Assembly: GCA_902727895.1 (NCBI GenBank)
Contig: CACVAP010000011.1
Span: forward strand, 69,800 to 133,799
From: an uncultured Sulfurovum sp.
Lineage (GTDB): Bacteria > Campylobacterota > Campylobacteria > Campylobacterales > Sulfurovaceae
Length of the DNA stretch: 64,000 bases
Direction: 5' to 3'
Below, in pieces: positions 8,139 to 17,008 of the stretch. The position numbers and the translations under genes were made by a program. Each line of letters opens with the position of its first letter. Within the stretch, counting starts at the first letter, position 1. The notes beneath the pieces are model-generated. The model was not told the origin of the DNA. It made no database searches and saw only the letters and a program-made list of their open reading frames with translations.

Positions 8139-8465
8139 TTACCCTATCAACTCCTCAATAACCTCTACATAGTTCTCACGGCTCTCAGAACCAGAGAACT
8201 TTTCTTTTGGCTCTCCATCTTTCACAAAATAGAGAGTAGGAACAGATCTAATACCATACTTGGCTACAAGTCCTTGTTGTGCATCAGCATTTACTTTGCC
8301 CACAACAAGCTGTCCTTCGTACTTAACAGAGAGTTCATCAATAAGTGGATTAATAGCTCGACAAGGACCACACCATTCAGCCCAAAAGTCTACAAGTACA
8401 GGAAGGTCAGAATTAATCACAAGCTCATCGAAATTTTCTTCTGTTAATTCAATAACCTTAGACAT
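8139..8465 (-). CDS. Thioredoxin (second paralogue)
   Basis: A 108-residue thioredoxin with FWAEWCGPC active site, conserved cis-Pro loop (IRSVPTLYF) and standard length. The frame runs 24 codons further upstream into trxB, but that extension is not thioredoxin-like, so I use the ATG at 8465, which gives MSKVIELTEENF. It starts 1 nt after the trxB stop and is surely co-transcribed with trxB. It differs from TrxA (WAPWCGPC) and probably serves another set of substrates, or is a backup; both would be reduced by the same TrxB in the cytoplasm. Confidence 0.92.
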   Translation of the reverse strand: MSKVIELTEENFDELVINSDLPVLVDFWAEWCGPCRAINPLIDELSVKYEGQLVVGKVNADAQQGLVAKYGIRSVPTLYFVKDGEPKEKFSGSESRENYVEVIEELIG

Positions 8466-8466
8466 A

Positions 8467-9408
8467 TTAAGCCAACTCTTGAAGGTAAGAGATGACTTGT
8501 AAAGCAGCAATAGACCCGTCACCAGCAGCTGAAACAACTTGTTTAGGTGCGTCTATACGTAGGTCACCTGCAACAAAAAGACCTTTAACAGAAGTATGCA
8601 TACTTAAATTGACAATAACTTGACCTCTATCATTCATGTCACAGATAAATTCACCTTTTTCATCTTTAAGTACACCATTGTTAACATTTAGCCCTACAAA
8701 AACAAAAAGTCCGGTATTTGTCATGTCTGTAATTTCATTGCTATTGGTATTTTTAATCTTTACACCATCAAGCCCCATCATCCCACCATAAGCTTCTTCA
8801 ATAACTGAATCAGTAATCAAATGAATATTTTCTTTTCTCATAGCTCTGTCTAAGGTTGGAGGAGCTGCTCTGAACTCATCTCTTCTATGCACAACATAAA
8901 CATCTGAACAAATGTTTGAAAGGAAAAATGCTTCTTCTAAGGCTGTGTCACCTCCACCAAGAACCGTTACAGGTTTGTCTTTATAGAAGAAACCATCACA
9001 AGTCGCACAAGTTGAAACACCTTTTCCAAAGAACTCATCTTCTCCGTTAAATCCTGCACGTCTTGGAGTTGAACCTGTACCAACAATAACGGTCAACGCT
9101 TCAACTTTTTCGCCACCTTCAACATGAAGGGTAAAATGTTCACCTGTTTTTTCGACACGTTCTACTTTTTTAAATTCATGTTTTAAACCAAAAGCGAAAC
9201 ATTGTTCTTTCCAGCCCTCCATGAAGTCTAAACCAGTTTTAGAACTATCAAAAAAACCAGGGTAGTTTTCAATTTCTGAACTTTTTGTAATCTGTCCACC
9301 AATAACACCTGCGTCAAACAATGTTACATTTTGAAGACCACCACGTGTAGCATAAAGCCCAGCTGTAAGACCAGCAGGTCCTCCACCAATAATTGCACAA
9401 TCAAGCAT
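8467..9408 (-). CDS. trxB: Thioredoxin reductase
   Basis: A 313-residue flavoprotein that passes electrons from NADPH to thioredoxin. It shows the N-terminal FAD-binding GGGPAGLTAGLYATRGG, the redox-active CATC pair in GVSTCATCDGFF, the NADPH-domain motif GGGDTALEEA and the C-terminal FAD motif LFVAGDLR. Length is typical. It lies between trxA and the second thioredoxin on the same strand, 134 nt after trxA; the terminator-like hairpin at 9513-9531 may reduce transcription from trxA into trxB. Confidence 0.96.
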   Translation of the reverse strand: MLDCAIIGGGPAGLTAGLYATRGGLQNVTLFDAGVIGGQITKSSEIENYPGFFDSSKTGLDFMEGWKEQCFAFGLKHEFKKVERVEKTGEHFTLHVEGGEKVEALTVIVGTGSTPRRAGFNGEDEFFGKGVSTCATCDGFFYKDKPVTVLGGGDTALEEAFFLSNICSDVYVVHRRDEFRAAPPTLDRAMRKENIHLITDSVIEEAYGGMMGLDGVKIKNTNSNEITDMTNTGLFVFVGLNVNNGVLKDEKGEFICDMNDRGQVIVNLSMHTSVKGLFVAGDLRIDAPKQVVSAAGDGSIAALQVISYLQELA

Positions 9409-12894: not shown

Positions 12895-12999
12895 GAAGGA
12901 AAAGTATATACAGAAATCATACCTGATGTTACTAAAGCAACATTACAGGGTATTATTACGAGAAGACTTATACAAACTTTTGTTAAAAATCTTCCGTAA
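12895..12999 (+). pseudogene. IS1595-type transposase fragment
   Basis: The frame reads EGKVYTEIIPDVTKATLQGI, then ITRRLIQTFVKNLP and a stop at 12997-12999. It resembles the part of ISXO2/IS1595 transposases around the second catalytic region (GKVYTxIVPD...LQxIIRGRV). Only about 35 residues remain and no terminal repeats are visible, so it is a relic. The match is from memory, on a short stretch. Confidence 0.42.
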
Positions 13000-13033
13000 T
13001 GAGCCTCTAAACTAGTCTAGGCTCTTACATCAT

Positions 13034-13906
13034 CTACTTAGAAGCAAATTTACCAGCTGAAAGTTCAGCTAAAAACTCTTCCATAGAATATGTTTGTCTA
13101 GCTTCTGAAGTCATCAAGTGAATTAAAATATCACCTAAGTCAACAACAACCCAGTCATCACTTTCATCTATGTGAAAAAACTCTTCACCTAAAGGTTTAA
13201 ACTCTATCTTTAACTGATCAGCCAAAGCAGCAGCATGTTTTGAAGAAATAGCATTCGCAATAACCACACGCTCTGCAATATAATCAATCCCATCAAGGTT
13301 AAAAACCTCTAATTCATCTGCTTTTTTATCATCTAAAAAGCTAACTATTCGCTCTGCTCTATCTTGGACACTTAATTCGTTAATACTCATGTATAAACTT
13401 TCCTTTGTAATTTTATTTCTAATTTCTGTTGAACTAAGGTCAACATCTACTGTTAAGAGCTTAAAACTTCTTAACTTATCACTTTGAATCTCATAACCAG
13501 GTCTTGTTGCAATGACCCATGTTATCTGAGTATTTAAGTACTCAAACTCTTTCCATTTTTCAATATTTTCTAAATTATCTGCACCAATTATAATATAACG
13601 TACATCATAAGTTTTCTGAAAATTTTTCAAGGTTTCTACCGTTGCTGTTGGCTTCTTTTCATTAATCTCAAAATCATCAACAATAACATTCTCAAAGCTA
13701 GAAAAAAGCTCTTTTGAGAACTTAAAACGTTCATCTGTTGTAAAGTGTGAATCATGTTTAAAAGGGTTCAGAAAAGTAGGTACAACCACAAGTTTATGGA
13801 CATCTAACACTTTTAATGCTTCTTCCACAATGGTTTTATGTCCAAGGTGTGGAGGGTCGAAACTACCCCCAAAGAGCGCAATCGTGTTTAAGTTATCTTT
13901 CAGCAC
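13034..13906 (-). CDS. nadD-rsfS: Nicotinate-nucleotide adenylyltransferase fused to ribosome silencing factor
   Basis: One open frame of 290 residues. Residues 1-170 are NadD, which makes nicotinate adenine dinucleotide in NAD synthesis: GGSFDPPHLGH nucleotide-binding motif (13-23) and the LSSTEIR motif (157-163). Residues 173-290 are RsfS/Iojap, which binds ribosomal protein uL14 and blocks subunit joining: VVIANAISSKHAAALADQL and DDWVVVDLGDILIHLMTSEA. An internal ATG at 13388-13390 (Met173) with AAAGGA upstream could start RsfS alone, giving 118 residues, the family's normal size. NadD's usual last helix appears to be lost or merged. In Campylobacter, from memory, these are two adjacent genes in the same place, divergent from gap. 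The pair starts 87 nt from gap on the opposite strand. Confidence 0.9.
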   Translation of the reverse strand: MLKDNLNTIALFGGSFDPPHLGHKTIVEEALKVLDVHKLVVVPTFLNPFKHDSHFTTDERFKFSKELFSSFENVIVDDFEINEKKPTATVETLKNFQKTYDVRYIIIGADNLENIEKWKEFEYLNTQITWVIATRPGYEIQSDKLRSFKLLTVDVDLSSTEIRNKITKESLYMSINELSVQDRAERIVSFLDDKKADELEVFNLDGIDYIAERVVIANAISSKHAAALADQLKIEFKPLGEEFFHIDESDDWVVVDLGDILIHLMTSEARQTYSMEEFLAELSAGKFASK

Positions 13907-13993
13907 TAAATAACCTCTATTTATGTAAAATATAAGCTATTTTAACATAAGTATCCCAAAAGGTACGAATCTCATATTGAAGGAATGAACTAA

Positions 13994-14992
13994 ATGGCAG
14001 TAAAAGTTGCAATAAATGGATTAGGAAGAATAGGGAGATGCGTGGCACGCATCATTGCAGACAGAGATGACATTGAGTTGGTAGCAGTAAATGCTACGGG
14101 TTCAGAAGACATGATCCAATATGGTCTAAAATATGATTCAGTTCATGGGAAAAGAGATGATGTTGTTGTTAAAGATGGTTTTGTAAACATTGGTTCTACC
14201 AAAGCAAAACTGTTTGCAGAACGTGATCCAGCAAAAATTGCTTTTGCTGATGCTGGAGCAACACTTGTTTTAGAGTGTACAGGTGCCTTTTTAACAGCTG
14301 AATCTGTACAACCTTATCTTGATAATGGTATTGAGAAAGTTCTTTTCTCAGCACCTGCTAAAGATGACACAGCTACTTTTGTTATTGGGGCTAATGAAAA
14401 CGAATATGCTGGACAAAATGTTGTTTCAAACGCTTCTTGTACTACCAACGGTCTAGCACCAATAGCTAAAGTACTTGATGATGCTTTTGGAATTGAGTCT
14501 GGACTTATGACAACCATTCACTCTTACACAGCTTCACAGCCTATCTTAGATGGAAAGCATAAAAAAGACCCAAGAAAAGGTCGTTCAGGAGCAGTAAACT
14601 TAGTACCTACTACCACAGGAGCTGCTAAAGCCATTTCAAAAGTTCTTCCTCAATTAGCTGGTAAGATTAATGGTCAAGCCATCCGTGTTCCAACACCAGA
14701 TGTTTCAATGGTAGACTTAACCGTAAACCTTGGAAAAGATGTAACTGTAGAAGATATTCAAGCTGCATTCCAAACAGCCTCTGAAGGTGCACACAAAGGT
14801 ATTTTAGGGGTAGATTTAGAATATAGAGTTTCTCAAGACTTCGTAGGCGAAGAACAAAGTACTGTTGTCGTTATGGATACTATTCAAGTAATTAACGGAA
14901 ACATGGTAAAAGTTCTTTCTTGGTACGACAATGAGTGGGGATACTCTGCACGTCTTGTAGACATGGCTGTTCACATTAGTAAGGAAGCATAA
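13994..14992 (+). CDS. gap: Glyceraldehyde-3-phosphate dehydrogenase
   Basis: A 332-residue enzyme that oxidises glyceraldehyde 3-phosphate with NAD(P), or works in reverse in gluconeogenesis or carbon fixation. It shows the NAD-binding GLGRIGR (9-15), catalytic Cys in [11 protein letters not shown] and the C-terminal [20 protein letters not shown] lies 8-9 nt before the ATG. First of gap-pgk-tpiA; the pgk start follows 1 nt after its stop. Confidence 0.97.
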
Positions 14993-14993
14993 T

Positions 14994-16187
14994 TTGAATT
15001 CATTAAAAGATATTGAAATAACAGGAAAAACAGTATTTATTAGATGTGATTTTAACGTTCCAAAAGATGAAGATGGAAACATTACCGATGACAGAAGAAT
15101 TCGTGGTGCTTTACAAAGTATTCGTTACTGTTTAGACCGTGATTGTAAAGTTATCTTGGCATCACACTATGAAAGACCAGAGCCTGGTATTTATGAAGAA
15201 AAATTTTCACTAGCAGCTGTTGTGACAAGACTGCATACCCTACTTAAGTTAGCATCAGATATCAATCTTGCGAAAGATGTGGTTGGTCTTGACGCTAAAG
15301 CAAAGGCAGCTGCACTCAAAGTTGGAGAAGTACTGGTACTTGAAAACTTACGTTATGAAGCTGGTGAAACCAAAAATGATATGGCATTTGCAAAAGAGTT
15401 GGCTTCTATGGTAGACATTTATGTAAACGATGCTTTTGGTGCTTGTCACAGAGCACATGCTTCAATAGATGCTATGGCTAGACTCTTTGCTCCAGAACAT
15501 AAAGCAGCAGGTTTTTTACTAAGCAAAGAAGTTAATTTTTTTGACAAAACACTTTCTAATCCTATTCGTCCTTTTGTGGCTGTTGTTGGTGGATCAAAAG
15601 TTTCAGGTAAACTTGAAGCATTGAGACAACTTTTAGACAAAGTAGACAAGGTAATTATTGGTGGGGGAATGGCATTTACATTCTTAAAAGCTAAAGGTTA
15701 TGAAATTGGAAATTCATTGGTAGAAGATGATTTACTTGATGAAGCACGTACTGTTATGATTAAAGCTAGAAAAAAAGGTGTTAAATTCTATTTACCTGTA
15801 GATGTTATTGTCGCTCCTGAGTTCTCAGATAGTGTTCCTAGTAAATATGTTACCTCTCAAGAAATTCCAGAAGGTTGGATGGGGCTAGACATAGGTCCAG
15901 CTTCTACAAGACTTTTCCGTACTGTTTTAAGTGATGCTCAAACCATCATCTGGAATGGTCCAATGGGTGTTTATGAAATGGACAAATATGCTAAAGGTAG
16001 TTTAAAAATGTCACATAATATTGCTGATTCAAATGGTACTACCATTGTTGGTGGTGGAGACACAGCTGATGTTGCACTAAGAGCTGGAGATGTTGAAGAA
16101 ATGACTTTTGTAAGTACTGGTGGTGGTGCAAGTCTTAATCTTCTTGAAGGTAAAACTCTTCCTGGGATTGAAGCTTTAAAGGCTTAA
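14994..16187 (+). CDS. pgk: Phosphoglycerate kinase
   Basis: A 397-residue kinase interconverting 1,3-bisphosphoglycerate and 3-phosphoglycerate. It starts at TTG (14994), supported by AAGGA 8 nt upstream in the end of gap and by the family N-terminus [20 protein letters not shown]. Other signatures are HRAHAS (substrate Arg/His), [10 protein letters not shown] (nucleotide) and the C-terminal [10 protein letters not shown] and [12 protein letters not shown]. Typical length. Co-transcribed with gap. Confidence 0.97.
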
Positions 16188-16318: not shown

Positions 16319-17008
16319 TTGATATACGCAGCAAACTTTAAAACAAATCATACAAGACAATCTACTAAAAATTATATGCAAGACTTACAGAACAAACTCT
16401 CAAATAAAAAGACTGAAGACAAAGTCTATGTTTTCCCTCCTCTTACAGCACTCGATACTTTTGAAGGTGATTTCACTGTTGGTACACAAAATGCTTACCC
16501 TGTAGAAAATGGTGCTTTTACAGGTGAAGTTGGTGTAGAGCAACTTGCTGAATTTAACATCAATAGTATTTTAATCGGTCACAGTGAACGAAGAGATATT
16601 ATTGGTGAGTCACAAGAAGATATTGCTGAAAAGTTTGCCTTTTTTAAAGAGCAAGGCTTTGAGATTATCTATTGTATTGGTGAATCATTAGAAGTAAGAG
16701 AAGAAGGTATTGAAGCTGTTATGACACATCTAGTTTCTCAGTTTGAAGGCATAGATACAAGATATGAAAATTTTGTGGTAGCCTATGAACCTATTTGGGC
16801 TATTGGTACGGGAAGAACTGCTTCTGTTGATGAGATTACAGAGACACACAATGCACTTAAAAAAGTTGTAGACAAACCTCTGCTCTATGGAGGATCTGTT
16901 AAAGGTGCCAACATCAAAGATATTGCTACTATTGAAAATGTAGATGGTGTTTTGGTTGGTGGAGCGTCTCTTAAGACAGAAACTTTTTTAGAGTTAGTAT
17001 TACATTAA
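16319..17008 (+). CDS. tpiA: Triosephosphate isomerase
   Basis: A 229-residue TIM-barrel enzyme interconverting dihydroxyacetone phosphate and glyceraldehyde 3-phosphate. Catalytic His is in IGHSERR, Glu in AYEPIWAIGTG, and the phosphate loop is YGGSVKGAN. It is slightly shorter than most bacterial TpiA (about 250), as in other Campylobacterota. TTG start at 16319 with AAGGT upstream; the frame has no ATG before the conserved AANFKTN. The 131-nt gap after pgk, with a hairpin, suggests partly separate expression. Confidence 0.95.
   Translation: MIYAANFKTNHTRQSTKNYMQDLQNKLSNKKTEDKVYVFPPLTALDTFEGDFTVGTQNAYPVENGAFTGEVGVEQLAEFNINSILIGHSERRDIIGESQEDIAEKFAFFKEQGFEIIYCIGESLEVREEGIEAVMTHLVSQFEGIDTRYENFVVAYEPIWAIGTGRTASVDEITETHNALKKVVDKPLLYGGSVKGANIKDIATIENVDGVLVGGASLKTETFLELVLH

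Follow-up and report, generated by a model that had tools for sequence, protein, structure and literature searches.

A recurrent NadD-RsfS gene fusion in Sulfurovum and its relatives, with conserved signals for a nested RsfS start

The fused gene and its surroundings

The DNA analyzed here (the window) is a stretch of 64,000 nucleotides from an uncultured Sulfurovum sp., on the minus strand of which nadD and rsfS, two ordinary genes, are joined in one uninterrupted reading frame. The first-pass annotation had reported a single 290-codon frame at this place without giving a strand, as well as a Met173 preceded by a Shine-Dalgarno (SD) sequence and opening an RsfS of 118 residues; both observations hold, and the features can be specified as follows.

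13034..13906, minus strand: fused nadD-rsfS reading frame, 290 aa; GTG start at 13906, TAG stop at 13036-13034
13913..13917, minus strand: SD sequence GAGGT of the NadD GTG, 7 nt upstream of the start
13400..13876, minus strand: NadD domain, residues 11-169 (TIGR00482, PF01467)
13401..13405, minus strand: internal SD sequence AAGGA, 10 nt upstream of the RsfS ATG; kept in fused and split relatives
13391..13393, minus strand: TAC (Tyr172), at the site of the NadD stop TAA in the split relative G025
13034..13390, minus strand: nested rsfS frame, 118 aa, a predicted separate product starting at Met173 (ATG 13390-13388)
13073..13357, minus strand: RsfS domain, residues 184-278 (TIGR00090, PF02410)
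12995..13029, minus strand: hairpin just 3' of the fused gene, a possible transcript end; fold -11.7 kcal/mol, z -2.1

Both domains pass the equivalog thresholds of their families. The NadD part scores 131.2 bits against TIGR00482 (cut-off 112.45) and the RsfS part 87.2 bits against TIGR00090 (cut-off 56.9; profile positions 2-98 of 99), so that NadD is followed by RsfS in one open frame, which is what identifies a NadD-YbeB (RsfS) fusion protein. The motifs GGSFDPPHxGH and SSTxIR, which we take to be the nucleotide-binding motifs of NadD, are present as GGSFDPPHLGH (residues 13-23) and SSTEIR (residues 158-163). The TIGR00482 match covers profile positions 1-173 of 194, the last approximately 21 NadD positions being absent; the window protein thus lacks the C-terminal stretch after SSTxIR that is typical of NadD, although not required for the cut-off. 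A short NadD that ends soon after SSTxIR (13394-13420 in the window) is found in most species of the genus, split and fused alike. Because most congeners with two separate genes have a NadD just as short, the missing stretch is not a consequence of the fusion.

The genome contains one RsfS copy and one significant NadD match. RsfS (also Iojap or YbeB) binds the ribosomal protein uL14 and blocks the joining of the ribosomal subunits. The NCBIfam model PRK07152.1, presumably of the NadD-YqeK type, likewise combines NadD with a second domain, but the second half of the window protein is RsfS; membership was rejected, as the score of 129.7 falls short of the cut-off (315) and the match is confined to profile positions 3-175 of 361. 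A structure prediction for the window protein, made with one homologue, was of too poor quality to be used (mean pLDDT 59.7, pTM 0.41).

As for the surroundings, a UUUUU run lies about 10 nt beyond the 3' hairpin; the hairpin was not scored as an intrinsic terminator, and the promoter/terminator scan returned nothing above chance. The fused gene and a set of gap-, pgk- and tpiA-like frames, given these names by eye on the basis of their translations, point away from each other. By eye, too, the pgk-like frame on the plus strand starts with TTG at 14992-14994, one base past the stop of the gap-like frame, and the tpiA-like frame on the same strand also has a TTG start, at 16319. At 8139-9408 on the minus strand, a thioredoxin-like frame, when read from its first TTG, overlaps the end of a thioredoxin-reductase-like frame; an internal ATG (MSKVIEL) appears, by eye, to be the likelier start.

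The junction in the nearest relatives

A search of genome contigs yielded one close relative, the next match being a distant NadD. The two nearest relatives with a fused gene (G019, 85% identical, and G009, 79%) possess an intact counterpart of the fused frame with the same junction as the window, namely TAC directly before the ATG. In the two nearest relatives in which the genes are split, NadD ends at this very place, with a stop codon TAA adjoining the ATG in G025 and with TGA TAG in G014. Hence, a single base separates the window from the two-gene state.

Distribution and turnover of the fused and split states

How common is the fusion? The survey covered the window's own phylum, and nadD and rsfS are neighbors in those relatives for which the junction was read. 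An RsfS match was found in 29 of the 34 genomes of the genus, and the junction is fused in 9 of these 29 and split in 20, so that the statement in the first-pass annotation that relatives have two genes is right for the majority of congeners and wrong for the remaining nine. In the family, 164 of 175 genomes have an RsfS match and at least 47 of the 175 carry the fusion, this lower bound coming from those full-length matches whose sequences were retrieved. In the class sample, a full-length match with no stop is present in 81 of 397 genomes (a hand count from the table), and the fusions occur in families f1, f6, f8, f9, f10, f13, f16 and f20; in f20, according to a hand reading of the table, 18 of 22 genomes have the fused gene. 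The linker between NadD and RsfS varies from 3 to 36 residues across families.

The main set of junctions comprised 167 genomes, 90 fused and 77 split; as full-length matches had been retrieved first, fused genes are over-represented in it. One of the 90 (G498) holds a stop elsewhere in its match and was left out of the 81. A later set of 30 junctions, including one repeat (G514), contributed 7 new fused and 22 new split genes.

Parsimony, applied to a tree built from both core domains of the 167 genomes, requires at least 31 changes between the fused and split states, gains and losses being counted together, whereas shuffling of the labels on the same tree gives a mean of 55.6 changes and a minimum of 43. 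The state of the junction is therefore inherited, yet labile. The genus tree contains a case in point: the split G033, with TAG at the junction, is nested inside the fused G030, G032 and G021, which have TAT (support 100/99), and is best read as a re-splitting through one base. In 22 of the 77 split genes, rsfS is in phase 0 with nadD and a single stop intervenes; other split genes are in differing frames, often with a 4-nt overlap. This pattern of turnover is what is to be expected from chance loss of stop codons in a packed operon.

Conservation of the inner Shine-Dalgarno sequence and start codon

In the main set, the start of RsfS was picked blind to the SD sequence, which was scored only afterwards. 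An SD sequence of at least 5 nt precedes the start in 68 of 90 fused genes, as compared to 61 of 77 split genes, and one of at least 4 nt in 86/90 and 74/77, respectively; with the start chosen in this way, the 5-nt sequence is absent in 22 and the 4-nt sequence in 4 of the 90 fused genes. By contrast, among 300 other internal in-frame ATGs of the fused genes, used as a control, only 3 have an SD sequence of at least 5 nt and 16 one of at least 4 nt. Synonymous recoding of the seven codons before the start (2000 runs) produced a 5-nt SD sequence in 14.6 genes on average and in 29 at most, as against the 68 observed. To allow for kinship, one gene was taken per all-fused clade: 35 of 42 have the 5-nt sequence, the null mean being 6.3 and the maximum 14 (5000 runs). 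The choice of codons is in line with these counts, arginine being written AGG in 27 of 36 cases within the six codons that immediately precede the start but in 84 of 922 elsewhere. As a point against, synonymous conservation in these six codons, compared over 22 fused pairs, is raised only mildly (73/90, versus 321/454 upstream and 958/1485 downstream).

The AAGG core is not tied to one codon phase (44, 25 and 10 genes in the three phases), and it is therefore an RNA signal, not a peptide, that is conserved. The inner start is ATG in 83 of the 90 fused genes, and in some fused lineages the start position is a leucine written TTG, itself a start codon. In 86 of 90 fused genes, the RNA around the inner start is less structured than that of the remainder of the gene; in the fold of the window RNA, the SD sequence is unpaired and the inner start lies in a weak hairpin (-3.3 kcal/mol). 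Each of the seven additional fused genes of the later set retains AAGGA and ATG. The fused genes thus display an SD sequence and a start codon inside a longer frame, conserved beyond what the protein needs, which is the mark of a nested gene. Because both signals are kept in nearly all fused species, it appears likely, as the first-pass annotation had surmised, that the fusion and the 118-residue RsfS are both made, and the window bacterium very probably still produces free RsfS from the inner start.

The fused genes that lack such an SD sequence point in the other direction, above all G514, one of the four without even a 4-nt sequence. In G514 (L167 / L221; family f10), the genes are fused through a longer linker, with neither ATG nor SD sequence at the junction, so that RsfS in the fused form only is possible there; this organism may rely on the fusion alone.

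Relation to known systems

A NadD-YbeB protein of Wolinella succinogenes, presumably a member of the same class as the window organism, resembles the window protein in that the same two families are joined in the same order. It appears in row 28 of a table in a 2011 paper and, according to the accessible part of that paper, was tested and displayed neither NAD cleavage nor pyrophosphatase activity (PMC3223725). The fusion itself is, therefore, already known. The accessible part of the paper deals with an enzymatic idea and mentions neither a nested start nor an alternation of fused and split states (PMC3223725). Within the portions of the open-licence literature that were available, we found nothing on a start of RsfS inside the fused gene, on the conservation of such a start, or on an alternation between the fused and split states of nadD and rsfS.

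Short forms of IF2 and CheA are C-terminal isoforms that arise from in-frame internal starts. Candidates for internal in-frame starts have also been reported in Campylobacter jejuni, in a ribosome-profiling paper the available main text of which does not name nadD or rsfS (PMC11955535). What these cases share with the nested start predicted for the window is that a ribosome-binding site located within a longer gene yields a shorter product in the same frame; unlike them, the short product here would be a whole separate family that is encoded by an ordinary gene in sister species. As to the phenotype, the accessible text of a TraDIS study of C. coli describes rsfS insertions as disadvantageous under H2O2, fused and split genes not being distinguished (PMC10832277), and cj1404 is listed, in the part of another report that was available, among genes predicted or found to be essential (PMC3229698).

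Stop loss in a packed operon as the likely origin of the fusion

The scenario that we favor, with a probability of about 0.83, is that of stop-codon loss in a packed operon, which would yield a tolerated and reversible fusion isoform, with free RsfS still translated from its own start. In this scenario, nadD and rsfS would have been tightly packed operon neighbors, the stop of the former and the start of the latter being superimposed. The in-frame stop of NadD would then have been lost, in the window through replacement of TAA by TAC in the codon that adjoins the rsfS ATG, as judged from the nearest split relatives. Ribosomes starting at the GTG would run past the former stop and produce the 290-residue NadD-RsfS, and other ribosomes would initiate at the inner ATG, the cell's only presumed source of free RsfS, to make the 118-residue protein. 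Free RsfS would bind the large ribosomal subunit, which is the function of the RsfS family in other bacteria. NadD would remain active despite the RsfS tail, and the RsfS activity would come mainly from the free form. The fusion as such would be nearly neutral, and the neutral joining that the first-pass annotation had offered as its alternative fits the comparative data best; the persistence of the fusion in some clades limits the certainty of this neutrality.

Could the fusion be functional? The tether to RsfS might bring NadD, and with it NAD synthesis, to the 50S subunit, or NAD status might tune silencing, with free RsfS as a second isoform. The recurrence of the fusion across many families of the class, its dominance in some clades and the adjacency of nadD and rsfS at the junctions read in relatives speak for this possibility. 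Nevertheless, it appears unlikely, given that the fusion is lost or absent in close relatives by one base, that the length of the linker is so variable across families, and that the W. succinogenes protein, in the accessible part of the published work, showed neither NAD cleavage nor pyrophosphatase activity (PMC3223725). Coupling to NAD was dropped as the main reading because sister species alternate between the fused and split states, and the link between ribosome dormancy and NAD status, proposed in the first-pass annotation, is not supported. A more elaborate version, in which the class would keep rsfS nested deliberately, is distinctly improbable: each fused species would make two RsfS forms at a fixed ratio, one of them a free silencer and the other a form tethered to NadD that would compete for the same 50S site or report on the NAD supply, and the one-base change at the stop codon would act as a switch between coupled and uncoupled modes.

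Alternatively, the fusion could be the sole product, the internal SD sequence and methionine being leftovers. G514, which has lost both signals and remains fused, would conform to such a view; the retention of SD sequence and start, which greatly exceeds the synonymous null when tested across 42 fused clades, and of a TTG start in several fused lineages that have leucine at this position, makes it a very improbable account of the set as a whole. That a sequencing or assembly error deleted a stop codon has a negligible chance of being correct and is excluded in practice because three species have a common junction: although the window genome is a draft of 105 contigs, the junction with its TAC codon is common to two other species at 79-85% identity, and fusions are found in single-contig genomes as well, e.g. 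G154 and G347.

Implications

The fusion of nadD and rsfS is, then, a real and recurrent joining of ordinary genes, for which comparison of the sequences provides good evidence of a probable second, nested product; it has more the look of an accident that can be undone than of a new device. The window and its relatives form a natural series in which one and the same gene pair has fused repeatedly and, with good support, has been re-split at least once, and in which the inner ribosome-binding site survives. Such a series allows a direct question: are the fusions found in databases bifunctional proteins, or are they run-through isoforms of genes that are translated separately? For annotators, the locus carries a warning, since one predicted "bifunctional" protein here probably conceals a second product.
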